Source: Paludibacter sp. (GTDB taxonomy: Bacteria; Bacteroidota; Bacteroidia; Bacteroidales; Paludibacteraceae). From it: a DNA stretch of 41,078 nt. Position 1 is the first letter of the stretch. Every line of letters starts with the position of its first letter. The stretch is from positions 1 to 41,078 of the forward strand of contig JAQUYE010000020.1 in NCBI GenBank assembly GCA_028691965.1, read 5' to 3'. The notes beneath the pieces were generated by a model that did not search any database, was not told the origin of the DNA, and was given only the letters and a program-made list of their open reading frames with translations. This document shows, one piece after another, positions 1 through 18,230 of this stretch. The translations under genes were made by a program, and so were the position numbers.

Positions 1-2294
1 GAGGCCTGTGTAATGGCAACATCCTTAAAGAGCAGATCTTCGGTACGCTTTTTATAGAAGTTGATGTCGAACAGGTAAGTATCATCTTTAAAACCAAGGT
101 CGATACCAAAGTTAAACGATTGTGTTGTTTCCCACTTAAGGTTATTCAATCGTAAGGAGGAAGGACGTACGGCTGTCATGTCGATATAGGAACCATACAA
201 ACTATAGCGGCTATAATGCAGGTATTCGTACTGGGGTTGGTTTCCACTGATCCCCCATGCCGGACGAAAGGCAACGGTACCGAGCCAATCTTTCGTATCT
301 TCCATCCAGGGCTCATCCGACATAATCCATTTGGCAGATATACCGGGGAAATTACCAAATTTGTTTCCTTGTCCGAACTTTGTACTACCATCGCGACGAA
401 TGGTACCATCAAGAATATAACGGCCTTTGTAAGCGTAGTGTCCGCGAAGCATGAAAGCAAGTGAACGCCAGGAGCTGTGAGCTGTTGATGCTCCTTTCAG
501 GTAACCAAAACCCGAAGCATCGATGGCTTCGCCGGAAGGCAGACTGTAACTAAGCATCGACTGAGCAGCCGAGTTACCAACGTTAATCTGGAACGACCCA
601 TACAGCAACAGATCATGATCCTTGTTGACAAACTTGGGTTGCCATGCTATATTTTGGTCGGAATAGATAGTAAGTGATTCACGGTCGGAGTTATCAGCAC
701 GATTCACCTGTTCTTCATACCACCTGAGGTTCGACACCTCCTGTGGTAAGAACATAGTTGTCTTACTATTATTAATGTCGAACGACACATACATCTCGTA
801 TTTTAAACGACCGTCTTCCGGTTTAATCAAATCATATTGCAAACGGAAGGTTGGCATAATACGGAATGATTTAAGTCGGTTGGTAGCTAAATGCGCTAGT
901 GCTACCGGGTTTTTAAGGTTCTTCTGACCATTATCAAGGGTAGATGAAAGAGGTATATTATAATAAGAGGATGTATTATTTCCTGCTGCATCCTGTGCGT
1001 AGATACTCACGTTCGGCATTTTACTATAAGCAATACCCAGGAGGTTCTCGTAATTTCGCTCGTTATCAGAATTGGTAAGTGAGAATTCAGAAATAAACTT
1101 TATACGGTCCGACACCGAATACTCCAGGTAGGCACGGGAGGAGATACGTGATAATTCCTGACCGATTACGGTACCCCGCTGATTGAAATAACCTCCGGAT
1201 ACACGGAAACGAGCACGTTCGCCACCACCGGAGATGGTAACGTAATGATCATTTACCGATCCCAGTTGAGTAACTGCGTCCACCCAATCGGTATTATTAT
1301 TATAATTCTCGAAATCGGGGAAGTTGCGGTCGTAGTTATACTCATCAATATCGGTAGCGTAATCATCCTGACGGGGATTGAGATAGGCCTGTTTCATTAA
1401 CATGGTAAAGTCATCACCGTTGAGCATATTCAAGCCCTTCGGCTGCTTGGTAAGCGTGTAACGGTACGAATACTCAACACGGGTGGGACCTGTCACACCT
1501 CGTTTGGTAGTGATCATCAATACTCCGTTGGCACCCTTCGACCCCCATATTGCAGCTGCAGCAGCATCCTTCAAAACCGAAATCTCAAGGATATCATCCG
1601 GATTAATACTCAACATATTTGCATATTGTTCCTGATTGGAGTTGGCAAAGTCGAAGTTAGGGTCGATCTGCACCTCGTATGGCACACCGTTTACTACAAT
1701 TAAAGGTTCGCTACTGCTGTTGATTGAAGTAACCCCACGTATACGCATGGAAGTACCACTACCGGGGTCACCTGAGTTGGCAACAATATCGAGACCAGCA
1801 ATACGACCTTGAAGAGCTTCGTCGATCGACGACACCTGAAGTCCTTCAAACTCTTTGGTATCAATTGTTTGAATAGCAGTACTCAATTCACGGGTAGGAA
1901 TCGAAAAACCGCCCTGACCGGTACGCCGTGTAGCAGTAATTTCGACCGTACGGATGGTCTGTACGTTTTCATCCAGCTGAACATTAATCATCCGGCGGTC
2001 GCCGATAGCCAGCACCTTGCGGTTATACCCAACGTAACTAATCTGCAAGCGATTGGATGTGCTACGTATGCGCATCACGAACTTCCCGTTAAAGTCGGTT
2101 GAAGTACCATTAACCACACGATTGTTGGCATCAATTTCAGTAACACTGGCTCCGATAATTTCAAGTTTATCAGAAGACGAAATAACCTGACCCTGAATAA
2201 TAACATTGTTTTCCTGAGCCTGAAGTGACGACAGCAGTCCGGGAAGCATCATCAGCACAAAGAGGATATAGGTAATTCTCATATTTGTTTTCAT
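1..2294 (-). CDS. SusC/RagA-type TonB-dependent outer-membrane receptor, C-terminus beyond window
   Basis: Imports glycan oligosaccharides across the outer membrane using TonB energy. My reading of the minus strand gives an open frame from the ATG at 2294 (a second ATG lies at 2282) to the window edge, about 764 codons. It has a Sec signal peptide ending near LSSLQAQ, a carboxypeptidase-regulatory-like domain at about residues 27-110 (VIIQGQVISSSDK, STDFNGKFVMRI), then the plug with SIDEALQGRIAGLDIV, MRIRGVTSIN and PLIVVNGVPYE, and the start of the barrel. SusC proteins are usually 1000 or more residues, so about a quarter is missing. It starts 13 bp after the FAS1 lipoprotein gene and is the last visible gene of the left operon. 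The usual partner SusD is not in view. Family assignment is secure; substrate is inferred from the GH128 neighbour. Confidence 0.93.
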   Translation of the reverse strand, partial: MKTNMRITYILFVLMMLPGLLSSLQAQENNVIIQGQVISSSDKLEIIGASVTEIDANNRVVNGTSTDFNGKFVMRIRSTSNRLQISYVGYNRKVLAIGDRRMINVQLDENVQTIRTVEITATRRTGQGGFSIPTRELSTAIQTIDTKEFEGLQVSSIDEALQGRIAGLDIVANSGDPGSGTSMRIRGVTSINSSSEPLIVVNGVPYEVQIDPNFDFANSNQEQYANMLSINPDDILEISVLKDAAAAAIWGSKGANGVLMITTKRGVTGPTRVEYSYRYTLTKQPKGLNMLNGDDFTMLMKQAYLNPRQDDYATDIDEYNYDRNFPDFENYNNNTDWVDAVTQLGSVNDHYVTISGGGERARFRVSGGYFNQRGTVIGQELSRISSRAYLEYSVSDRIKFISEFSLTNSDNERNYENLLGIAYSKMPNVSIYAQDAAGNNTSSYYNIPLSSTLDNGQKNLKNPVALAHLATNRLKSFRIMPTFRLQYDLIKPEDGRLKYEMYVSFDINNSKTTMFLPQEVSNLRWYEEQVNRADNSDRESLTIYSDQNIAWQPKFVNKDHDLLLYGSFQINVGNSAAQSMLSYSLPSGEAIDASGFGYLKGASTAHSSWRSLAFMLRGHYAYKGRYILDGTIRRDGSTKFGQGNKFGNFPGISAKWIMSDEPWMEDTKDWLGTVAFRPAWGISGNQPQYEYLHYSRYSLYGSYIDMTAVRPSSLRLNNLKWETTQSFNFGIDLGFKDDTYLFDINFYKKRTEDLLFKDVAITQA

Positions 2295-2307
2295 GCGTTG
2301 TTCTAAT

Positions 2308-4881
2308 TTAATCTTCAAAGGTCAGTATATTATTCACTTGGTGCACCACTATCGATGAAGAAGTAGAGATCAGAGATGTATTGAAGGCTGTACCACTAAC
2401 AGCACCGGTTCCGTCAACGTTTTTATAAGTTGTCGGAAGTTTGGCAAACAGATAATCCTTAGCAACAACATTATTCAGCGACGTTACCTGAACTTTCTCA
2501 TTCTTCTCGGTGGTCAGTTCCATCGAATTGGCAGTTCCGACTACACCTAGCTTGTAATACTTATTCTTAGCTGTTTTCCAGTGCGTTACTGCATCATTCA
2601 TTTTAATGGTAGCCGACTGGAACTGATCATTAATATTCTCTCCAAAGAAGACTGCATTATCCTGGAAGTGATACCTGAGGAAACGAACCATCTTTTCGAT
2701 TGCCTCGGTGCGGGCTGTGCCGGTTAAGGCATCAATCTCATCCCAGGTGCGTAGCCGGCCGCTATCGTATGCATCTCTGATAGCTGCATTTGTTGGTGCA
2801 TATACTGTATATCTGTAGGCATTAAAGAACTTAACAACCTGATCTACTCCCTGTATAGAAAATATCTGCATCGTATAATCAGCCGGCACATTGCTCAGCA
2901 GTTCAAAGAATGCTTCATATTCAGGATTTGAGCTCAGGGTTGTATACAAAGAGCGAAGTGCAGGCTGGATGGAGTTATCAATAAAATAGGTTTTTCCGTT
3001 CTGCTGTTCGAATATGCGTGTAACTCTTGAAGAAGTTCCCATGTGTAGGTTCCGTCCTCCGCTGACAGTCATATTCGATTCGTTACCATCGATACGAATG
3101 ATATCATTTGCCTTCGTTACATAATATTGTTTCTGAGAAGTTATATTCCCGATAACAATGTGTGAATCGAGCACATCCCACAAACGGTTTTTGATAAAGT
3201 TAGGGTAGTTTCTACTGGAGATACTATCAATTGGTTCCGCCTCTGCTATATCATTTTCTTTATCGTACTTATGTATATACGCCATAATGGAGTTTGTTTC
3301 CTCAACGTATTTGAACTTAAGTACGGCAGGTACGTCCTGACCATAGGCAATCGGATCGACATAGTGTTCGAAGTATTCGTCGGTAGGAATAAACACGCTG
3401 TAATTACTTACCAGCGAGTTCAGGTAGAGTTTATAAAACTCAAACAAGGTTCCGTCGACACTGGTTTCAGAGATACGGATGGCCCAGTTCATAATCTTTG
3501 TATTTTCACTCAACAGAATCGGACTATACACCGATATATAATCCCGCGGAGGATATACCTTGTTGGTATAAAATATTTGTCCGTTTACACCGGTGTAGCT
3601 GCCTGTAACATGTGACTTTTCGATAGGCACAGCATAGTTTTCATCGTCGACTATCTTACTGAAACGGCTGGGTACCGATTCGATAAGCGACGGACGCATA
3701 TGGCGGCGTAAAAGAGGAATAATAATATTGTCGGGCACACTGTCCCATGATCCAAACCGACCTTTCAGCAACTCTCCGACCCCACTGTTGAAGTACTCGT
3801 TCATGGCAGCATCGGTAGGAACAAACATAGTGGCCATATCGGCAGGAAGTGCTGCCTGACTACCGGTTGTAGAGTAGCTGTTCCATCCCGGACTAAAAGG
3901 CAGGAGAGTGGAAATGGCTACCAGGCCTGAAGGTAAAGCAGTAGCACCACCTTTAGACGAAAAATACAGTTTCTCGAAGATGGAGTCAGTAAAGTTTGGA
4001 TAGAGCTGACGATACTGAGAGTTGATAGCAGCGTCGTAATAGGGTGCCGCAAAACGTTCCAGTAATTTTGAAAAGATCTTTGTTTCAGGATTCATTTCAA
4101 TACGTACAGCCATATTAACCGGCGGAATAAGCACTTTTTCGAGCACGTGAACATACCCGTTCTTACACACTATATCGCGTTTAATAACTTTCGTATCGAA
4201 CACATGTACGTCTCCGTCTTCGCGGCTTTTCTTACCACTGAACACAGCCCCTGAAATATAATCCATGTCCTCGTTAGTGATTCCACTACGGGTCAGAAAC
4301 TTCTGGGTAAAATATACGGTAGGTGATACAGTAGCATCTTTCAGCAAATACATCCCCTGCTCTCTTCGGGAATCAAAATGCTTTCCAATCGATAGTTTAT
4401 CTCCCTGTTCGAAAGCGATACTATCGATGGCTGCCAGTGTAGTAGGCCGACGCATGGCAGTTCCTTCGTGATAGGTCGAACCATCGTAATAATTCGATAG
4501 CGTTTCGATAAGGTAAGCGTTGTTAATCAACGAAAAGTTTAGAATCAGCTTTTTCTGAGCAAGGCTAAAATCTTCGTACTTACGAACACCCCATTCGTTG
4601 TTTTTGTAAAACTCCGTAAAGGCTGAATCGCTGGCAACAAAAAGTGTTTTACTACCGGTCAGACTAAGCGTTTCGGTGTATTTAAGATCATCGATCATTC
4701 GGATGTAAGTTGTATACTTACCTTCCTCTTGCAGATAATCGTAAATACTTGCACCCAGCCACTCAGGGAGAGTATCGTCGTAGAAATAATCGTCCCGACA
4801 GGATGAAAACACGGTAAGCATGAGGGTAAGCATCATAAAAAGCCTGACCCGCATAGTGGTTCCTGTGTATTTTCGTTTCAT
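2308..4881 (-). CDS. Surface lipoprotein with about four fasciclin (FAS1) domains
   Basis: Multi-FAS1 lipoprotein of 857 residues. The N-terminus has a type II signal with lipobox VFSSC (Cys28), followed directly by RDDYFYDD; an acidic stretch after the lipid Cys resembles the lipoprotein export signal that sends proteins to the cell surface in this phylum. Four FAS1-like units can be traced: about residues 38-260 (TLFVASDSAF, GYVHVLEKVL), 265-465 (ATMFVPTDAAMNEYF), 470-655 (SVFIPTDEYFEHY) and 660-857 (YTVYAPTNAAIRDAY, ending VHQVNNILTF). FAS1 domains mediate adhesion or ligand binding. The gene begins 20 bp after the GH128 gene and ends 13 bp before SusC, so it probably works with the receptor at the surface, as glycan binder or scaffold; this role is inference. 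Met10 (4854) is an alternative start, which would still keep a lipoprotein signal. Confidence 0.88.
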   Translation of the reverse strand: MKRKYTGTTMRVRLFMMLTLMLTVFSSCRDDYFYDDTLPEWLGASIYDYLQEEGKYTTYIRMIDDLKYTETLSLTGSKTLFVASDSAFTEFYKNNEWGVRKYEDFSLAQKKLILNFSLINNAYLIETLSNYYDGSTYHEGTAMRRPTTLAAIDSIAFEQGDKLSIGKHFDSRREQGMYLLKDATVSPTVYFTQKFLTRSGITNEDMDYISGAVFSGKKSREDGDVHVFDTKVIKRDIVCKNGYVHVLEKVLIPPVNMAVRIEMNPETKIFSKLLERFAAPYYDAAINSQYRQLYPNFTDSIFEKLYFSSKGGATALPSGLVAISTLLPFSPGWNSYSTTGSQAALPADMATMFVPTDAAMNEYFNSGVGELLKGRFGSWDSVPDNIIIPLLRRHMRPSLIESVPSRFSKIVDDENYAVPIEKSHVTGSYTGVNGQIFYTNKVYPPRDYISVYSPILLSENTKIMNWAIRISETSVDGTLFEFYKLYLNSLVSNYSVFIPTDEYFEHYVDPIAYGQDVPAVLKFKYVEETNSIMAYIHKYDKENDIAEAEPIDSISSRNYPNFIKNRLWDVLDSHIVIGNITSQKQYYVTKANDIIRIDGNESNMTVSGGRNLHMGTSSRVTRIFEQQNGKTYFIDNSIQPALRSLYTTLSSNPEYEAFFELLSNVPADYTMQIFSIQGVDQVVKFFNAYRYTVYAPTNAAIRDAYDSGRLRTWDEIDALTGTARTEAIEKMVRFLRYHFQDNAVFFGENINDQFQSATIKMNDAVTHWKTAKNKYYKLGVVGTANSMELTTEKNEKVQVTSLNNVVAKDYLFAKLPTTYKNVDGTGAVSGTAFNTSLISTSSSIVVHQVNNILTFED

Positions 4882-4901
4882 AAGATGTTATAAAAGCGTA
4901 T

Positions 4902-7634
4902 CTAAAGTTTAACAAATTTCGTTGTTTCGTAATTTCCGGCACGAAGGATATAATATCCCGGTCGGAGGTGTGCCACTCCAATTGAATGATCCATCATCTC
5001 CTCCTGATGAACCAGGCTTCCCGACAAGTCGTAAATGGAAATCAGGGTTCCCGCTTCAGGAGCAGTAGAGAAAGATAGTAGATCTCCAACAGGATTAGGA
5101 GCGATAGTCAGTTTTGAGCTATAGGTCTGATCGGTTACATGAGTGGCTAAAGTTGGATTCATCACCAGCCATCCTACTGTTTCGGCAGCGGTTGAAGCCT
5201 GGCTCAGGGAGCGCTCACGTTGTTTTAATACGTAGGCAGCGGTTTCGCCAATGATAAAGGAGCGAAGTGTAGCCGTTGTATCATCGTTGCAGGTTTGCAT
5301 CTGAGCAAGGAAAAGCGGATTTTTAACTGTTTCGCCGTAGTTGATAACCTTAGTGGTGGTACCTACGTAGTTGGGTGATGTTTTAGCCACTTTAAATCGT
5401 CGGCCTTCCATAACACCAATGCCTTCGGTCATTGCCACATAGCTGATCGATTCGGTTCCGGGTTTGGAACTAACACCCGCTTCTTTAAATATGCGCACCT
5501 GAAAGCCGTTTACGGTGACATTACGTACGCGCAAGGTGGTGGCGTAGGTTGTACCCGGACTTCTTTGATTGGCAAACACAACAGGTACAGAACTAAAGGG
5601 TGTTGGAAAGGCAACATACGACCATTCCGACGAGGCAGTACCACTACCAGCTAAGGCGGTTACATCTCCGAGCTGATGAACACCCGACGACAACAACAGG
5701 TAGGGTATATTTTCATCGCGACTAAAAGAACTGACATTCTGATACGACCAGGGCACAGCCTGTATTTCAAAGCGGGATGTTATATTCACGAACTTTGCCC
5801 GCGGAGTCATCAGTACAGTTGTATTGTTATTGGACGGAGGACCAAGTACTATGGAGGGGAAAGTTGAGAAAGGTGTTGCAAAGAACACCGCATTCCAGCT
5901 TGTATTTGAAACTCCCGCCACACCAAACTGTGCAACAGGTCCACCCGATGCTGAACTTGAACTAACTTCGGGTGTATAGCCCGAGAAGCTGCCATCAGCC
6001 AGTTTAGTCCGTGCCCGGTATTTTACAGTCCCTGCCGATGCATCCAGCTGATCGGTATAAGTGTATACTTTAGGCTCATCGCTGTTTACTATAACTTCGT
6101 ACGAGCCATTTCCTTTCTTTCGTTCCAGAATAAAACCTCTGAAATAATCGCCGTTGTCATCCCTTACCGTGAGCGTGACCAATCCGCTTCCATAGGTAGC
6201 ACCAAGGGAAGGATTTCGTTTCATACTGTATACCGGTATCTTTTCGTTCTTACGGTTAAAGGCCATCTGCGACTTATTATTCATATAATAGTTACCAGCC
6301 TTGGTGAGGTTTCCGTTCAGAATCATAGCACGTGCATCCTGAACCCAGTTGTAAATGGAATACCGCTCTACAAAGCTTGTAGTATCAAGCACATTCAGGA
6401 TGGCTTTTATATCATTTAATTGTTTGTTTGCATTGGCATCCGAATAACTTTTGTCGGGAGTAGGCCACGACTCAGTAGTCCAGTTAGCTCCGTTATTCCA
6501 TTCGGTAATCCAGATGGGTAACCCTGTTTTGTCGTGAACATATTTGAGATCGTTGTACCATTGCTGAGGTGACTTAGCCCAGTAAGCATGAATCACAACA
6601 TAGTCGACCCTGTAGTTACGGGCTTTACAACTGTCCAGAAATTCGTATAACCAGGCTCCGTTACTACCGAAAGGATCGGAAGGTGCAGGAGACCCGAGAC
6701 GTAAACCCGACTTCATGTATTCGGGCCAAGCTGCCAGAGCTTGCGATACCGACATATTCGACTGGTCGGGACGGTTGGGTTCGTTATATCCCAGCAAATG
6801 ACTAACCCGTTGTTTGTTGTTTATCTGATCCCAGCCCGGCCAACCAAGGTTTTGCTTGATGGGTACGTATTCCTGATTTACCTTCGACTCCTGATCGGCA
6901 CTCCAGGAATACCACCAGGTACCTTTTACTTTTTCAGCATCATTACCACCACCGCTGCCGGTTCCGCACCATCCTTTTTTAGTAACATACTCCCAGTTAA
7001 AGACCCGGATAAATGAAACAGTTGCATCGAGCAGGTAGTTAAAGGAGGGTATCTCCAGATCTTCGGTATCGGCTATAAACACACGACTATAACCACGACC
7101 ATCGGCATTCGTAGCGAGTGTTGCCATGTAACCTTTCTTAAGACGAAACGACCGCATGCGATCGTCCATAGCCCCTAACTTATTATGATAGTTAAACAGA
7201 GAATAGGAAGCTGAGTCTCCTTTGAAATCAGTCTCGCTATATATGGTAAGAGGTTGAAAACTTGCCGGGTGTGCAACTACTGCAGTACCATGCTTGTAAA
7301 TCATTACCCGCACGTTCATACGATTCACAGCAGGATACTGATCGACAAACATAGCAGGTAACAGACTATCAATAACTGTGGTCGGACGAATATTGGGGAA
7401 ATAAAGCCATGCATCTACTCCGTTTAAGCGGATAATGCTGTTTACAAGAGCTGACTTAGCATAGGCAGCATTAATGGAAAGCGAAGATTTGCCTGTAAGA
7501 ACAATCTCTTTATCTACATAACCATTTATCGTGACAGTAGTTCCATCGATAGTAACAGTTGTTTGTGAGGTTTGCGCTACCAGGCTTAGTGTAATGCTGC
7601 AACTCACAAAAACGAATAAAATCAGTTTCCTCAT
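4902..7634 (-). CDS. Secreted multidomain GH128 endo-beta-1,3-glucanase-like enzyme with T9SS sorting domain
   Basis: Predicted to cleave beta-1,3-glucan outside the cell; 910 residues from the ATG at 7634. Order of domains: signal peptide (MRKLILFVFVSCSITLSLVA), an unassigned N-terminal region, a betagamma-crystallin-like domain at about 125-205 (LTIYSETDFKGDSASY, DDRMRSFRLKKGYMATL), a GH128-type barrel at about 205-465, an FN3-like domain (about 470-560), two repeats resembling H-type lectin domains (WNAVFFATPFSTFP and WSYVAFPTPFSSVP) at about 565-765, and a T9SS type A C-terminal domain (IAPNPVGDLLSF to TTKFVKL). Putative catalytic residues are Glu285 in LGYNEPNRPDQ and Glu378 in IWITEWNNG. 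The start is preferred over an in-frame ATG at 7694 because a TAnnTTTG promoter element lies between them. It is followed after 20 bp by the FAS1 lipoprotein gene. Confidence 0.87.
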   Translation of the reverse strand: MRKLILFVFVSCSITLSLVAQTSQTTVTIDGTTVTINGYVDKEIVLTGKSSLSINAAYAKSALVNSIIRLNGVDAWLYFPNIRPTTVIDSLLPAMFVDQYPAVNRMNVRVMIYKHGTAVVAHPASFQPLTIYSETDFKGDSASYSLFNYHNKLGAMDDRMRSFRLKKGYMATLATNADGRGYSRVFIADTEDLEIPSFNYLLDATVSFIRVFNWEYVTKKGWCGTGSGGGNDAEKVKGTWWYSWSADQESKVNQEYVPIKQNLGWPGWDQINNKQRVSHLLGYNEPNRPDQSNMSVSQALAAWPEYMKSGLRLGSPAPSDPFGSNGAWLYEFLDSCKARNYRVDYVVIHAYWAKSPQQWYNDLKYVHDKTGLPIWITEWNNGANWTTESWPTPDKSYSDANANKQLNDIKAILNVLDTTSFVERYSIYNWVQDARAMILNGNLTKAGNYYMNNKSQMAFNRKNEKIPVYSMKRNPSLGATYGSGLVTLTVRDDNGDYFRGFILERKKGNGSYEVIVNSDEPKVYTYTDQLDASAGTVKYRARTKLADGSFSGYTPEVSSSSASGGPVAQFGVAGVSNTSWNAVFFATPFSTFPSIVLGPPSNNNTTVLMTPRAKFVNITSRFEIQAVPWSYQNVSSFSRDENIPYLLLSSGVHQLGDVTALAGSGTASSEWSYVAFPTPFSSVPVVFANQRSPGTTYATTLRVRNVTVNGFQVRIFKEAGVSSKPGTESISYVAMTEGIGVMEGRRFKVAKTSPNYVGTTTKVINYGETVKNPLFLAQMQTCNDDTTATLRSFIIGETAAYVLKQRERSLSQASTAAETVGWLVMNPTLATHVTDQTYSSKLTIAPNPVGDLLSFSTAPEAGTLISIYDLSGSLVHQEEMMDHSIGVAHLRPGYYILRAGNYETTKFVKL

Positions 7635-7665
7635 GGGTATTAGTTCTAGTATCTGAATTCGTATG

Positions 7666-7673
7666 CAAAGATA
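7666..7673 (-). promoter_or_regulatory. Putative -7 promoter element (TATCTTTG) of the GH128 gene
   Basis: Read on the minus strand this is TATCTTTG, an exact match to the Bacteroidota -7 consensus TAnnTTTG. It lies 32 bp upstream of the ATG at 7634, giving a predicted leader of about 25 nt. No good -33 TTG at the usual 19-21 bp spacing was found. It would let GH128, the FAS1 lipoprotein and SusC be transcribed separately from the two genes upstream. Confidence 0.55.
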
Positions 7674-7743
7674 AAATCTTAGCAGAACGAACATGTGTAA
7701 TATTCGTTCAAATGGGTAGAATAAGATTTACATTAGGCTAAGG

Positions 7744-8790
7744 CTACCAGCTGGTCGGGAGTTTACAGTCATCAACCAACATTGCTTTTACAACACGGGC
7801 ATGATTTATCAGATCGGTCTTGTTTTTGACTTCCTCCCGCTGATTAATTCCGGTTGGCCAGTAATGCTGTGGGTTATTGTTGTTATCGCCCTTCAGGGTG
7901 GATCCGGTAAGTTGCTGACACAAGGCCTGTGCAACCAGCCCCTGCCAGATTCCGTTCGACAACTTGCTTTTCCATACATTAGTAGTACCCGACCCAAAGT
8001 AATGAGCCATCTCGTGCATAGCAGTCCCTACATACATATAGCGTTCGTTAGATCCAAACCCGATACTTCCGTGATACGATGCCTGAGCAGTTGGAATCCC
8101 TGAACTGTAGTAAACCCAAATATTTGCCCGGAAAGGAGTATAACGATTGTAGTAATACAACGCACTGTCCATTGCCTGCTTTATCATGGAATGCACCCTT
8201 GGTCCTGCATCAATAACACTCTGTGCAAGGGTATAAGTAACATAGCCCATCAGGGGCTGAAGTTTGGTAACCTCACTGTACGAAGTACCGGCACAGTTGG
8301 ACGCATAGGAGCGAATATAATAGGTATTATCTATACTAATCCCGTTAATGAACGAAATATACTGTCCAACAGTACTGCTTTGAGCTTTAAGAACAGTATC
8401 TTTAATCGTTGGATTGGGATGAGTTGCCCAACAAATACCTCGTTCGGTAATCTGACATCCGCCTCCGGTTTTTACGTTCACCTGACAGGTTGCACGCATC
8501 GCATCGTAGTTAAAAGTCACCTTCATCAACTCAACTACCGGCAACGAAAAAGTTCCCTCAGCAAACACCACACTATCAACAGAGTTAAGATCAACGTCAC
8601 TTAAGGTTCCGTCTTTCTTATGCACCTTCATTTGAGCAACATCCCTGGCGACAGTCAGGCTATCGATATTGGCAAGGACAAAGTTCTGCACCCTGCTATT
8701 GGTTTGGTGTACATTTAATACAGGATCGGCAGCAAACACCAGGATGGCAGCCGTAAGCACTATCAATAAACTATAAAACCTCTGCTTCAT
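7744..8790 (-). CDS. Secreted HExxH protein, putative zinc metallopeptidase-like, function unknown
   Basis: A 348-residue protein with a Sec signal (MKQRFYSLLIVLTAAILVFA). Residues about 25-90 form a short module (FVLANIDSLTV, MKVHKKDGTLSDVDL, VDSVVFAEG) that also occurs in the gene just upstream. An FN3-like domain follows at about 90-185 (MKVTFNYDAMRATCQV, RGICWATHPNPT, TYYIRSYASNCAG). The C-terminal part has HEMAH with His259, Glu260 and His263, matching the zinc-binding HExxH pattern, then NNPQHYWPTGINQREEV, whose His could be a third ligand. Known HExxH proteins are mostly zinc peptidases, but activity here is inference. No T9SS domain is present. Its ATG overlaps the upstream stop (ATGA), indicating translational coupling. 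It could bind or trim a glycoprotein or cell-wall target alongside the GH128 enzyme. Confidence 0.75.
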   Translation of the reverse strand: MKQRFYSLLIVLTAAILVFAADPVLNVHQTNSRVQNFVLANIDSLTVARDVAQMKVHKKDGTLSDVDLNSVDSVVFAEGTFSLPVVELMKVTFNYDAMRATCQVNVKTGGGCQITERGICWATHPNPTIKDTVLKAQSSTVGQYISFINGISIDNTYYIRSYASNCAGTSYSEVTKLQPLMGYVTYTLAQSVIDAGPRVHSMIKQAMDSALYYYNRYTPFRANIWVYYSSGIPTAQASYHGSIGFGSNERYMYVGTAMHEMAHYFGSGTTNVWKSKLSNGIWQGLVAQALCQQLTGSTLKGDNNNNPQHYWPTGINQREEVKNKTDLINHARVVKAMLVDDCKLPTSW

Positions 8791-9275
8791 TCCTTAACAA
8801 ATTTAAGAGCACGATTCCCGATTCTTACCACGTAAATACCTTTATTCAAGTGATTAATCTGAATCTGTACCTCTGAATTACTAATAAGTTGTTCGTGAAC
8901 TAATTGTCCGGATACCGAATATATTTTCACCTGATGAGAACCCTCATCGAGTGAGCTGAATGATATCCAATCAGCTGCGCGGGTAGGATAAACCGACCAG
9001 GAAGCTTCGTTAGCCACCATGGGATTAAGTCCTGTTTTACTATCAAAATTGAAATACCGGATATCTCCCATAGGTATTCCACTCACCTCTCCGGAGTTAA
9101 GGTGAATCTGCATGGTCGTTGCATCAAAGGTGATTTTTTGCAAATTATCAAGGGATATCCTGGTAACCGACTGATCACCCAGCAGAATGGCTAATTCTTT
9201 GTTTTGAGCTGAAAGCAAAACTGCGCCTAGCAGTAACAGCATTACCAGCGAACTTTTCAGGTGTTTCATTTGCAT
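8787..9275 (-). CDS. Small secreted protein with T9SS type A sorting domain
   Basis: About 162 residues, or 160 if the ATG at 9269 is used. The signal peptide is MKHLKSSLVMLLLLGAVLLS. Residues about 25-75 carry the beta-rich module also seen in the next gene (ISLDNLQKITF, MQIHLNSGEVSGIPM, DIRYFNFD). The rest is a T9SS C-terminal domain (WSVYPTRAADWISF, VKIYSVSGQLVHE, LNKGIYVVRIGNRALKFVKE), so the product should be exported and anchored at the surface. An in-frame ATG at 9308 is rejected because it lies inside the probable promoter. The stop overlaps the start of the HExxH gene by 4 bp. It has no catalytic domain and is too small for an enzyme of a known class here; it may be a surface adaptor. 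Confidence 0.78.
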   Translation of the reverse strand: MQMKHLKSSLVMLLLLGAVLLSAQNKELAILLGDQSVTRISLDNLQKITFDATTMQIHLNSGEVSGIPMGDIRYFNFDSKTGLNPMVANEASWSVYPTRAADWISFSSLDEGSHQVKIYSVSGQLVHEQLISNSEVQIQINHLNKGIYVVRIGNRALKFVKE

Positions 9276-9305
9276 AGCTTTAAAGAGTTTTTCTATTACC
9301 GGATG

Positions 9306-9313
9306 CAAAGTTA
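9306..9313 (-). promoter_or_regulatory. Putative -7 promoter element (TAACTTTG) for the left operon
   Basis: On the minus strand this reads TAACTTTG, matching TAnnTTTG. It is 30 bp upstream of the ATG at 9275, implying a leader of about 23 nt and excluding the ATG at 9308. A -33 TTG at normal spacing is not evident. Confidence 0.5.
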
Positions 9314-9428
9314 TATATAATGTAGTACATTATTAGTAAAATCTTCTCAAAAGGGGGGACAAGTAGCCATGAATTTATTTTTGCACTGTTTTGACCAAAA
9401 AGTTCACACTATATTACAGGCGATGTTC

Positions 9429-9436
9429 TATTTTTG
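9429..9436 (+). promoter_or_regulatory. Putative -7 promoter element (TATTTTTG) for the GH105-GH43-GH43 operon
   Basis: TATTTTTG matches TAnnTTTG and lies 31 bp before the ATG at 9468. A second identical octamer at 9376-9383 is a possible alternative. Neither has a clear -33 TTG. The 190 bp between 9275 and 9468 hold divergent promoters for the two glycan operons and no gene. Confidence 0.5.
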
Positions 9437-9467
9437 TGTCAATCAAATAATAACACACGACAGAATC

Positions 9468-12400
9468 ATGATCAGACCATTGAAGAGTGCCACTTTGCTA
9501 TCATTGATCAGCATAGCACTGACTATGCTGCTTTCTACTGAACAGTTACGTGCCGAATCATCATCCGACATTTTAAAAATCATTGAGAAAGTAAATACTT
9601 ACTGGCAACAGGAACGACCTGATCCGGGAAATGCTTTTTGGGACAATGCTGCTTACCACACCGGGAACATGGAGGCCTATAAATTGACTAAGAACCCGGT
9701 ATTTTTGAATTATTCGGAGAAATGGGCAGAAAAGAACCAGTGGAAAGGTGCGAAATCCGACGATCGTAGCAAGTGGCGTTATAGCTACGGAGAATCGGAT
9801 CAGTTTGTATTGTTTGGTGACTGGCAAATTTGTTTTCAAACTTATATCGACTTGTACCACATTAATCCGGATAGTATACGGATTAAAAGGGCATTAGAGG
9901 TTATGGAATACCAAATGTCGACACCTAAGAATGACTACTGGTGGTGGGTGGATGGCTTGTACATGGTAATGCCGGTTATGACTAAACTTTACCATCTTAC
10001 CAATAATGAATTATACCTCACAAAACTCTACGAATACTTTAGCTTTGCCCGGGATCTGATGTACGATTCCGAATCACACCTCTACTACAGGGATGCCAAG
10101 TATATTTATCCGAAACATAAAAGTGTAAACGGTAAAAAAGATTTCTGGTCACGGGGAAATGGCTGGTTGTTTGCCGGCTTAGCCAAAATACTTCCCGACT
10201 TACCTGATAACTGGAAACACAAGGCTGAATTTACTGTGTTATTTCAGAAAATGGCTGTTAGCTTAAAGGATGCCCAGCAAGAGGGCGGATACTGGACGCG
10301 TAGTCTGCTCGATCCTGACCACGCTCCCGGAGAGGAAACAAGCGGAACTGCCTTTTTTACCTATGGCTACTTTTGGGGAATTAATAACGGCTATCTGCGT
10401 AAATCCGACTACCTCCCTGTAGCCGAAAAAGGATGGAACTACCTAACCCAAAAAGCAATGCAAGCTGATGGAAGAATCGGATATGTACAACCAATCGGCG
10501 AAAAAGCAATTCCGGGACAGGTTGTTAACGAGAACTCAACTTCCAACTTTGGCGTCGGCGCTTTCTTATTGGCTGCTGCTGAACGCTATCGTTTTCTGGA
10601 GAAGAAGGAGCAAGTGCAGGCAGGCACTGCTAAGTCAACCAGCAATTACTCAGCTTACCTGTTCAGTTATTTTACCGGCAACCGCAAATCGGAAGAGCAA
10701 ATTCACTTTGCAATTAGTTACGACGGACTTAACTACAAGACCCTGAATTATAATCAACCTGTTATTTTATCGTCGTCTATCAGTCGTACCGGAGGTGTAC
10801 GCGACCCTCACATTCTGCGTGGTGCCGATGGTAAGACTTTTTACATGACGGTTACGGATATGGTTTCATCGAATGGCTGGAGTTCAAACAGGGGGTTGGT
10901 GTTGTTGAAATCAACCAACCTTACCGACTGGAGCTCGTCGGCTATCCAAATCCCAACAGCGTTTCCTGCTGAGTATGGCGATATTGACAGGGTGTGGGCA
11001 CCTCAAAGTATTTACGACCCGGAAGCAGGGAAATACATGGTTTATTTCTCGATGCGAAAGGGAGATTATGATGCTGATAAGATTTACTATGCCTATACAA
11101 ACAAGGAGTTTACTGCGTTCGAGTCGGCACCTAAACAGCTTTTCTTCCACCCCGAAGGAAAATCGTGTATTGACGGAGATATAATTTATCACGATGGTAT
11201 GTACCATATGTTCTTTAAAACGGAAGGTCATGGCAACGGACTTAAAAAGGCGGTTTCGTCAACACTCACTTCCGGATGGGTGATGCAGGACAAGTATCTA
11301 CAGCAAACCAATCATGCCGTTGAAGGCTCCGGCATTTTCAAACTGAATGGTACCAACGAATATATACTGATGTACGACGTATACATGAACGGTCGCTATG
11401 ATTTTACCCGCAGTTCGGATCTTGAGAATTTCACCCTGATCAACAAGGATCAAATAAGCATGAACTTTCATCCCCGTCATGGAACAGTAGTACCAATCAC
11501 TGCAAAAGAAGCAAAGGCTCTTGAAAAGAAATGGGGAGAAAAACCGGCAAAAGCAGTAAAAGGGAATAATCCGGCCTTAAAGGGGTTATACGCCGACCCG
11601 GATATTATCTACTCCAACAAAACCGGCAAGTACTACATCTACCCTACTTCTGATGGTTATACCGGATGGTCTGGAACGTATTTCAAAACATTTTCGTCGG
11701 ACGATTTAAAGCAGTGGAAAGACGAAGGGACTATTCTCACTCTTGGTAAAGATGTGAAATGGGCCGATCGGAATGCCTGGGCTCCCTGTATAATTGAACG
11801 TAAAGCAGGTGATTCGTATAAATATTATTATTACTTTACTGCTGCGCAAAAGATAGGGGTTGCTGTATCGGATCATCCGACCGGACCTTTCGTGGATTCA
11901 AGCAAACCGTTGTTAAGTAGCCGACCGGAAGGCATGAAACATGGCCAGGTGATTGATCCTGATGTATTTCATGACCCTGTAAGTGATAAATACTACCTCT
12001 ATTGGGGGAATGGTTTTTTGGCAGTAGCCGAACTAAACGATGATATGACTTCAATTAAGGAAGGAAGTACCAGGATAATAACTCCGCGGGGAGGTGAATT
12101 TCGTGAAGGGGCTCATGTCTTTTATCGTAAAGGCACCTACTATTTTATGTGGTCGGTGGACGACACCCGTAGTGCAGATTACAGGGTGAAATATGGCACT
12201 TCAACTTCGCCGACAGGCCCAATAACTCTGGCCGAAAACCCATTGATACTTCAGAAAGACCCTAAAGCAGGGATCTACGGAACAGGACACCACTCGACCA
12301 TCCGGGTGCCCGGTAAAGACGAGTGGTATATTGTTTATCATCGCTTTAATTATCCGAAAGGAATCACCATGGGCGATGAGGCCGGGTATAATCGTGAAGT

Positions 12401-12476
12401 ATGCATCGAGCGGATGAAATTCGACAGAAAAGGCAACATAAAGCCCGTAAAACCAACTCACAAAGGAGTGCGTTAA
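9468..12476 (+). CDS. Secreted trimodular GH105-GH43-GH43 enzyme
   Basis: A 1002-residue protein from the ATG at 9468, with signal peptide MIRPLKSATLLSLISIALTM. Residues about 25-380 are GH105, an unsaturated uronyl hydrolase fold: WWWVDGLYMVMPV with probable catalytic Asp162, DFWSRGNGWLFAGL, and GEETSGTAFF. Residues about 395-665 are a first GH43-type propeller with candidate acids Asp446 (VRDPHI), Asp571 (IDGDII) and Glu619 (EGSGIF). Residues about 690-1000 are a second GH43 propeller with Asp710 (ADPDII), Asp832 (IDPDVF) and Glu880 (REGAHVF). All three modules therefore keep plausible catalytic residues. GH105 removes unsaturated galacturonic or glucuronic acid left by lyases; GH43 enzymes usually act on arabinose, galactose or xylose linkages. 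The next gene starts after 11 bp. An upstream in-frame ATG at 9369 lacks a signal peptide in position and is rejected. Confidence 0.88.
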   Translation: MIRPLKSATLLSLISIALTMLLSTEQLRAESSSDILKIIEKVNTYWQQERPDPGNAFWDNAAYHTGNMEAYKLTKNPVFLNYSEKWAEKNQWKGAKSDDRSKWRYSYGESDQFVLFGDWQICFQTYIDLYHINPDSIRIKRALEVMEYQMSTPKNDYWWWVDGLYMVMPVMTKLYHLTNNELYLTKLYEYFSFARDLMYDSESHLYYRDAKYIYPKHKSVNGKKDFWSRGNGWLFAGLAKILPDLPDNWKHKAEFTVLFQKMAVSLKDAQQEGGYWTRSLLDPDHAPGEETSGTAFFTYGYFWGINNGYLRKSDYLPVAEKGWNYLTQKAMQADGRIGYVQPIGEKAIPGQVVNENSTSNFGVGAFLLAAAERYRFLEKKEQVQAGTAKSTSNYSAYLFSYFTGNRKSEEQIHFAISYDGLNYKTLNYNQPVILSSSISRTGGVRDPHILRGADGKTFYMTVTDMVSSNGWSSNRGLVLLKSTNLTDWSSSAIQIPTAFPAEYGDIDRVWAPQSIYDPEAGKYMVYFSMRKGDYDADKIYYAYTNKEFTAFESAPKQLFFHPEGKSCIDGDIIYHDGMYHMFFKTEGHGNGLKKAVSSTLTSGWVMQDKYLQQTNHAVEGSGIFKLNGTNEYILMYDVYMNGRYDFTRSSDLENFTLINKDQISMNFHPRHGTVVPITAKEAKALEKKWGEKPAKAVKGNNPALKGLYADPDIIYSNKTGKYYIYPTSDGYTGWSGTYFKTFSSDDLKQWKDEGTILTLGKDVKWADRNAWAPCIIERKAGDSYKYYYYFTAAQKIGVAVSDHPTGPFVDSSKPLLSSRPEGMKHGQVIDPDVFHDPVSDKYYLYWGNGFLAVAELNDDMTSIKEGSTRIITPRGGEFREGAHVFYRKGTYYFMWSVDDTRSADYRVKYGTSTSPTGPITLAENPLILQKDPKAGIYGTGHHSTIRVPGKDEWYIVYHRFNYPKGITMGDEAGYNREVCIERMKFDRKGNIKPVKPTHKGVR

Positions 12477-12487
12477 CTACTACTAAA

Positions 12488-13444
12488 ATGAAAAAACTAC
12501 TTATTGCTGCACTCGTACTTTTACAGTCGGGAATGGTGTTGGCAACCGGACTAATTAAAAACGGAGACAAGTTCTACGACACACGTGGAGAAGTTATCAA
12601 CGCTCACGGAGCCGGCTTTATTAAAGTCGGAGATTATTACTACTGGATTGGTGAAAACCGTAAACAAGGAGTTTTTGTGTCCTGCTACCGATCCACTGAT
12701 TTGGTAAACTGGGAATTCAGAGCTGACTTGCTCACTCGTGATTCAGACCCGGACTTAAGAAACGCCAATATTGAACGTCCGAAAGTAGTCTATAACGAAA
12801 AAACCGGGCAGTATGTGATGTGGATGCATTATGAATACCGACACGATTACTCTCAGGCCCGGGCTGCAGTTGCTTATTCCGACGATATAGAGAAGCCTTT
12901 TACCTATGTAAAGAGCTTTCGACCATTTGGGAATATGTCGCGCGACTGCACAGTATTCAAAGATACCGACGGAAAAGCATATTTCTTTTCAGCAGCGCGT
13001 GAGAACTACGACCTGGCAATGTATGAACTTACCGACGACTACCTGGATGTAAAGGAACATATCACCACACTGTGGCCGGGCGGTCATCGTGAAGCTCCAA
13101 CGCTGGTAAAACATGGTAAGTACTATTTCCTCTTCACCTCCGGATGTACGGGCTGGAATCCAAATCAGATGAAATACGCCTATGCAGAATCGATTCGGGG
13201 ACCCTGGTCAGAGTTAATCAATATTGGTGATGAAACAACTTTTCGTACTCAACCTACTTATATCATCACTGTTGAAGGAAAAGAATCCACGAGCTACCTG
13301 TATGTAGGAGATCGCTGGGATCCGAAACAGTACTTCAACTCAACGTACATTTTTCTTCCCCTTCGTTTTAAGGATGCTACTACCCCACTTTTTGAATGGC
13401 AGGATGAAGTAAGAATCGATGCAAAAAAAGGAATAGTTAACTAA
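12488..13444 (+). CDS. Secreted GH43 exo-beta-1,3-galactanase-like enzyme (probably subfamily 24)
   Basis: A 318-residue single-domain GH43 protein with signal peptide MKKLLIAALVLLQSGMVLA. The first blade has INAHGAGFIKVGDYYYWIGE, where most GH43 enzymes have an Asp as general base; this one has none. Instead Glu96 (IERPKVV), Asp153 (SRDCTVF), Glu202 (HREAPTL) and Gln255 (FRTQPTY) line up, with almost constant offset, with residues I recall for the fungal exo-beta-1,3-galactanase Pc1,3Gal43A (Glu102, Asp158, Glu208, Gln263), in which Gln acts as base. That predicts release of galactose from the beta-1,3-galactan backbone of arabinogalactan. It sits 11 bp after the trimodular enzyme gene and 24 bp before the beta-galactosidase gene. 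An ATG at 12401 inside the preceding gene is rejected. Confidence 0.87.
   Translation: MKKLLIAALVLLQSGMVLATGLIKNGDKFYDTRGEVINAHGAGFIKVGDYYYWIGENRKQGVFVSCYRSTDLVNWEFRADLLTRDSDPDLRNANIERPKVVYNEKTGQYVMWMHYEYRHDYSQARAAVAYSDDIEKPFTYVKSFRPFGNMSRDCTVFKDTDGKAYFFSAARENYDLAMYELTDDYLDVKEHITTLWPGGHREAPTLVKHGKYYFLFTSGCTGWNPNQMKYAYAESIRGPWSELINIGDETTFRTQPTYIITVEGKESTSYLYVGDRWDPKQYFNSTYIFLPLRFKDATTPLFEWQDEVRIDAKKGIVN

Positions 13445-18230
<4,786 letters not shown>

Follow-up and report, generated by a model that had tools for sequence, protein, structure and literature searches.

What does a lipoprotein built of fasciclin (FAS1) domains do when its gene stands beside that of a SusC transporter and no SusD is in sight? 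The question is raised by one end of a 41,078-nucleotide stretch of Paludibacter sp. DNA (contig JAQUYE010000020.1 of GenBank assembly GCA_028691965.1; hereafter the window), in which the gene for such a protein, here designated FAS4, lies directly upstream of a truncated SusC gene, SusC1. An earlier note on this DNA had proposed that FAS4 takes the place of SusD or, alternatively, that it is a further surface or partner-binding protein working together with a SusD located past base 1. The alternative is the proposal that gained support: an ordinary SusD very likely belongs to the locus, and FAS4 is, on balance, probably a conserved surface accessory component of the first SusC–SusD pair (SusC1D1) within a seven-gene import cassette.

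The window is the entire contig C90 of a 3.04-Mb, 167-contig assembly (genome G000). Five genes are tightly packed on its minus strand, in the order small type IX secretion system (T9SS) protein, HExxH protein, GH128, FAS1 lipoprotein, and SusC. Refined coordinates (gene starts set by homologues or the first ATG), Pfam, and alignment uphold the order, single strand, tight spacing, and lipoprotein and FAS1 assignments first read from the sequence. Three of the genes carry the argument:

3-2294, minus strand: SusC1, SusC/RagA TonB-dependent transporter, N-terminal ~764 residues (TIGR04056, TIGR04057, Plug); the contig edge cuts the gene.
2308-4881, minus strand: FAS4, lipoprotein with four predicted FAS1 domains, lipid Cys28 and acidic residues after it (Pfam, AlphaFold2, Foldseek, alignment).
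4902-7634, minus strand: GH128-type glycoside hydrolase with a T9SS type A C-terminal tail (Pfam, PDB match, Glu pair).

FAS4 starts 20 bp after the GH128-type gene, which is the carbohydrate-active enzyme gene linked to the locus, and SusC1 starts at about position 2294, 13 bp past the FAS4 stop. SusC1 matches TIGR04056 at 498 bits (cut-off 368), TIGR04057 at 53 bits, and Pfam Plug, and is 87% identical to the complete SusC1 of G033, a 79%-identical Paludibacter relative; its open frame leaves the window at base 1 after 772 codons. No SusD is visible inside the window because the window is a complete contig and SusC is cut at its edge.

The continuation is very likely C96, an 8157-bp contig of the same genome that runs, on its minus strand, from 223 residues of a SusC C-terminus through a SusD, a 644-aa FAS1 lipoprotein, and a 532-aa FAS1 lipoprotein (the counterparts of SusD1, Lp640, and Lp525 below) into a second SusC cut by the contig end. 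The SusD (5850-7469) begins 15 bp after the SusC end and matches SusD_RagB at E 9e-25 and 88 bits, above the Pfam cut-off. With G033 as a ruler, the match to C90 ends at query base 2288 and that to C96 begins at 2623, leaving about 334 bp absent from the assembly. Compared with two of the six G033 copies of the cassette, C96 is closer to that on G033:C8, the window's orthologue (SusC1 end 88%, SusD1 77%, Lp640 78%, Lp525 68%, and SusC2 63% over 161 residues), than to that on G033:C34 (70%, 49%, 47%, 39%, and 43%, respectively). A second split cassette copy of the window's genome is accounted for by C114, which overlaps C123 by 280 bp at 99.3% identity, and the small contig C152, which carries Lp525 and SusC2, probably continues it; a third cassette is complete on C112. 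As C96 matches the G033:C8 orthologue better and the other split copy is accounted for, it very likely follows C90, a placement made by comparison rather than by read-through. SusD lies 15 bp after SusC in G033 too, and it is very likely that an ordinary SusD belongs to the window's locus and that FAS4 is no substitute for it. The contig ends of C114 and C123 differ by one base in length, with the SusC frame broken near the C123 tip; this is probably an assembly split rather than a real pseudogene.

The full cassette reads FAS4 - SusC1 - SusD1 - Lp640 - Lp525 - SusC2 - SusD2. A search with FAS4 gave at least 516 confirmed relatives in a bacterial genome collection, and the best 79 loci were mapped, several of them from genomes that also belong to the set numbered G. 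Genes in the fetched loci were called by a greedy longest-open-reading-frame (ORF) script, in which opposite-strand ORFs may mask some genes (Lp640 in L148, for example); each count below covers loci with room for the next gene and takes the last FAS4 per locus. SusC1 directly follows that FAS4 in 77 of 77 loci, 71 of them no more than 50 bp away or overlapping by no more than that, and when the matched FAS4 is taken instead, SusC comes next in 76 of 77 (Bacteroidales). FAS4 precedes SusC far more often than chance would give. SusD1 follows SusC1 in 70 of 70 mapped relatives, where a SusD up to three same-strand genes further on was counted; the SusC1 of L116 is split between two ORFs. A SusD immediately after SusC was what the earlier note had named as the sign of an ordinary locus, and this is the arrangement on C96, in G033, and throughout these relatives; the FAS1–SusC pairs lacking SusD for which it had suggested a search were not seen among the mapped loci with room.

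Farther downstream, Lp640 is found in 59/68 loci, Lp525 in 64/65, and SusC2 in 59/62, and in fetched stretches that reach past SusC2, a SusD-like gene comes next; SusD2 was confirmed by Pfam in both copies scanned (L055 and L064) and is assigned elsewhere by weak similarity and position. Listed carriers include Paludibacter, Prolixibacteraceae, Marinilabiliaceae, Dysgonomonas, Paraprevotella, Prevotella, and Bacteroides. Cultured species are among them: Alkalitalea saponilacus (L092) and Natronoflexus pectinivorans (L094) with a GH128-linked cassette, and Paraprevotella xylaniphila (L114) with a different one. From other orders of the class, seven loci in six genomes keep the cassette order, with SusC2 present in six and the seventh cut before SusC2. 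Judged from its genes, the cassette is thus a widespread, nearly fixed, FAS1-built double-SusCD unit.

The association also holds in the reverse direction. The complete G033 SusC1, searched against 35 genomes with at most 21 candidates scored per genome, gave 27 matches at E 1e-150 or better, and 24 of these have a FAS4 match directly upstream on the same strand (by position; only some were mapped gene by gene). Of the other three, one (G004:C20) has a different FAS1-type lipoprotein of 712 aa upstream, and contig ends truncate two (G000:C123 and G020:C241). In G033, which is 99% complete, all 20 Pfam Fasciclin matches fall within six cassettes, on C8 (two), C15 (traced up to Lp525), C17, C31, and C34, and the 11 Fasciclin matches of the window's genome lie on C90, C96, C112, C123, and C152, all with cassette genes.

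Variants of the cassette were also observed. Lp640 lies upstream of FAS4, not after SusD1, in L079, L090, L109, and L135; L090 carries two such copies on the same strand as FAS4 and a third on the opposite strand. In L122, L127, L128, and L149, in which no Lp640 was found, FAS4 is longer (987-1051 aa against 857 aa), as if taking over part of the Lp640 role, and FAS4 is about 955 aa long in L140 and L152 although Lp640 is present there. At L115:9950-19599, two FAS4 copies stand directly after the SusD2 of another cassette.

FAS4 itself matches Pfam Fasciclin at E 1e-17 and 65 bits (cut-off 22), and Pfam alone finds two stretches. Its AlphaFold2 model (mean predicted local distance difference test [pLDDT] 90.8) was matched by Foldseek over nearly its whole length to the four-FAS1 proteins periostin and TGFBIp (E 4e-24, 851 columns). 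The count of four FAS1 domains, as the earlier note had it, is borne out by this predicted structure and its alignment to periostin and TGFBIp. The whole-chain root-mean-square deviation from these proteins is about 15 Å, indicating that the domains are alike and their arrangement is different; FAS4 shares four tandem FAS1 domains with periostin and TGFBIp, but it is only 12-13% identical to them and is a bacterial lipoprotein in a nutrient-import operon. All 70 aligned relatives keep lipid Cys28, and two alignment columns soon after it are mostly acidic (in 55 and 52 of the 70). These columns resemble the surface-export signals C-X-K-(D/E)2 of C. canimorsus, SDDDD of B. fragilis, and SDDFE of F. 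johnsoniae, as given in an excerpt of PMC5080379, and a surface location of FAS4 is therefore predicted as likely.

The two downstream lipoproteins are related to FAS4 in profile through their N-terminal FAS1 part. Lp640 has two FAS1 domains followed by a C-terminal β-sandwich resembling carbohydrate-binding module (CBM) families CBM6 and CBM35 (model pLDDT 89.3), and its Foldseek matches comprise FAS1 proteins, the xanthan-binding module 7ehg, CBM35 2w1w, CBM6 8j3x, and multidomain glycan enzymes. On the strength of the CBM-like matches to its model, Lp640 is most likely the best candidate for a surface glycan-binding protein (SGBP) in the cassette. Of 42 Lp525 members, 39 have a FAS1 domain; the C-terminal region of this protein is unclassified. 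PDB profile searches with the three FAS1 lipoproteins returned FAS1 entries only (eukaryotic, algal, cyanobacterial, and single-domain bacterial), none of them labelled as SusCD-associated.

The enzyme next to the cassette is its variable part. The window's GH128-type protein matches Pfam Glyco_hydro_cc (PF11790; E 5e-34, 118 bits) and PDB 6uaq (E 6e-24), both of which we take to represent GH128, and what are presumably the catalytic glutamates, E305 (in NEP) and E398 (in TEW), are present as expected on alignment to 6uaq (numbering of the 930-codon frame). The protein accordingly shows the TIM-barrel core and Glu pair of characterised GH128 members. The family acts on β-1,3-glucan, and by this analogy the substrate of the window's copy is likely β-1,3-glucan. 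The label of a β-glucan-type locus, given to the window earlier, thus suits this copy through its GH128 and fails as a general rule, since other copies adjoin GH43, GH67, or GH98. A simple β-glucan locus as the general meaning of the FAS1 protein was rejected: GH128 is the nearest upstream same-strand gene in 14 of 68 loci with enough upstream sequence. Scanned upstream neighbours elsewhere (10 of 33) comprised GH43, GH67, GH98, and LamG proteins, one BACON protein, and two without matches; in one scanned locus the neighbour is an unrelated tRNA synthetase. A FAS4 tree was built with FastTree, in which 21 of 90 inner branches are open; labels were given to 83 of its 93 rows, and 22 rows count as GH128 because one of the two closest upstream genes, whichever its strand, encodes it. 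On this tree, GH128 requires 7 changes against 14-22 in 200 label shuffles and is thus clustered, and the Prevotella/Dysgonomonas half has no GH128 among its labelled rows. Confinement of GH128 to part of the tree implies that the cassette is not tied to β-1,3-glucan, and constancy of the transport cassette while the neighbouring enzyme varies implies that FAS4 is tied to the transporters and not to the enzyme.

From these genes we infer the following working. The window would hold the upstream end of an outer-membrane glycan-import operon whose GH128, exported by the T9SS, would cut β-1,3-glucan outside the cell, as its family suggests. Lp640, and perhaps Lp525, may hold the glycan chain as SGBPs, with their FAS1 domains acting as a membrane-proximal spacer or docking part, much as the immunoglobulin (Ig)-like domains do in SusE/F and DUF1735 proteins. 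FAS4, with FAS1 domains only, may sit on SusC1D1, and possibly on the other FAS1 lipoproteins too, holding the complex together, and SusC1D1 and SusC2D2 would import products that differ in size or branching. Distance correlations over 51 loci give partial r values of 0.45 for FAS4-Lp640 and 0.31 for FAS4-SusC1, though as proof of contact such correlations were set aside as not decisive, since all genes share the locus history and the correlations mostly reflect common descent.

Several observations weigh against so close a partnership. FAS4-SusD1 distances give a partial r of -0.03 once the other genes are accounted for, leaving contact with SusD1 unsupported by the correlations, and synteny shows joint inheritance, not contact. 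The 79 mapped loci were chosen by FAS4 similarity, which makes their counts conditional on FAS4. In 9 of 68 loci no Lp640 was found downstream (in 4 of the 9 it is upstream of FAS4), Lp525 is missing in 1 of 65, and SusC2 in 3 of 62, and in L115 a 1457-aa ORF and then a second FAS4 separate the matched FAS4 (L115:9950-12436) from SusC1. A Pfam CBM search of the Lp525 C-terminal region across 42 members gave nothing consistent. The reach is also modest: FAS4 is matched in 17 of 60 genomes of the nearer set, the window's own included, and at E 1e-20 in 7 of 296 genomes of a phylum sample, again with the window's own (scoring up to 3 candidates in each genome).

Extra lipoproteins are a familiar feature of SusCD loci. 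The cassette resembles the starch Sus and polysaccharide utilisation loci (PULs), in which SusCD is accompanied by SusE/SusF SGBPs, in having SusC with SusD right after it, extra lipoproteins, and a linked glycoside hydrolase, but its extra lipoproteins are FAS1-built, one stands upstream of SusC, and a second SusC-SusD pair lies downstream. The nearest known systems in working, by analogy, are the levan and dextran utilisomes of B. theta and the DUF1735-type spacer lipoproteins. In the utilisomes, an SGBP and a hydrolase sit on SusCD to give four outer-membrane components, and an SGBP there, with its C-terminal glycan-binding domain, resembles Lp640 in plan (PMC7618045, excerpt). The cassette likewise combines SusCD with additional lipoproteins predicted to lie at the surface; unlike the utilisomes, for which the excerpted account notes no FAS1 protein, it has genes for up to seven predicted surface or outer-membrane proteins, two SusCD pairs among them. 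As in DUF1735, BACON, and SusE/F proteins, Lp640 follows a plan of N-terminal lipidated spacer and varying binding domain, whereas the spacer fold is FAS1 rather than an Ig-like β-sandwich, and FAS4 is without a terminal binding domain (PMC11216935, in the portion consulted). Open-access literature on fasciclin or FAS1 together with SusCD, PUL, or Bacteroidetes, seen in part and with subscription papers outside its scope, yielded no description of the cassette; the extracts that come nearest concern a Gramella PUL figure whose key includes a FAS1 gene (PMC4891872) and a mussel symbiont that has SusCD pairs and transcribes a FAS1 gene highly (PMC10199937).

Among other explanations, the one that survives best, although we consider it unlikely, is that FAS4 is itself the main surface glycan-binding protein, equivalent to SGBP-B. 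In Sus-like systems, additional lipoproteins at the surface are frequently SGBPs (PMC7618045, excerpt), and mammalian FAS1 proteins are described in the consulted part of PMC6032426 as binding carbohydrate components of the matrix. The confident PDB matches of the FAS4 model, however, are all FAS1 proteins with no CBM among them, it is Lp640 that has the CBM6/35-like domain instead, and FAS4 stays with the transporter while neighbouring enzymes change.

More doubtful still is the idea that FAS4 is a cell-adhesion protein merely sharing the operon, attaching cells to plant or fungal walls near their substrate. Its nearest folds, periostin and TGFBIp, fit such a role, and adhesion is a frequent assumption for FAS1 proteins, yet the same excerpt cautions that "adhesion" may mislead for bacteria (PMC6032426). 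A near-fixed position just before SusC1, tightly spaced and kept across several orders, speaks against mere cohabitation, and confinement of all Pfam-detected FAS1 genes of G033 to cassettes suggests a transporter role.

There is only a slim chance that FAS4 is a bridge coupling SusC1D1 and SusC2D2 into one assembly: one cassette does contain the two pairs together with three FAS1 lipoproteins, and the four domains of FAS4 offer several possible docking faces, but FAS4-SusC2 distances correlate worst (0.62, partial -0.33; SusC2 first 300 residues), which disfavours direct contact. Replacement of SusD by FAS4 as the lid or binding lipoprotein of SusC, suggested by a lipoprotein gene directly upstream of SusC and by a truncated SusC as the last gene before base 1, can be dismissed as next to impossible given the SusD that follows SusC on C96 and in every mapped relative with room.

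The reading of FAS4 as an accessory component of SusC1D1 has a stronger form, in which FAS4 is an obligate extra subunit of a distinct SusCD class and the cassette assembles a two-transporter "FAS1 utilisome" across Bacteroidales and neighbouring orders, with glycan enzymes swapped in; this we put forward tentatively, as possible but rather less than probable. Should the three FAS1 lipoproteins prove to be true subunits, a whole class of Bacteroidota importers would contain parts that have gone unrecognised beside SusCD. Such loci could be recognised by their seven genes in near-fixed order next to enzymes that vary, and the cassette would offer an alternative surface scaffold to the Ig-like SusE/F type as well as a case for testing what a second SusCD pair in the same operon is for.

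The two remaining minus-strand genes of the group stand outside the conserved cassette:

7744-8790, minus strand: HExxH protein; partial match to an arabinosidase model at residues 98-190.
8787-9275, minus strand: small protein with a T9SS type A sorting tail (Por_Secre_tail 39 bits, above the curated cut-off).

These genes overlap by 4 bp, and the GH128 gene starts 109 bp after the HExxH gene. The T9SS tails of the GH128 and small proteins both exceed curated cut-offs, and the window's genome has matches to SprA_N, SprA being, as we take it, a T9SS component. The HExxH protein matched no Pfam family; it is 51-65% identical, over about residues 74-348, to matches in five other genomes of the genus, and homologues occur in GH128-FAS4 loci of Alkalitalea (L092), Natronoflexus (L094), and Geofilum (L099). 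A 51%-identical homologue (G005:C63:67846) shares its contig with two FAS4 cassettes, and the stretch around residues 80-190 has many tandem matches in G019:C80 open frames of 3066 and 2206 aa. Beside the G033 cassette (L029, L062), neither an HExxH homologue nor a separate small T9SS gene was found. Beyond these genes, a divergent plus-strand cluster at 9369-16576 of the window encodes a GH88-GH43 fusion (1035 aa), a GH43-type protein, and a GH2 β-galactosidase, and the G033 cassette is flanked by long ORFs similar in size and strand to this cluster.

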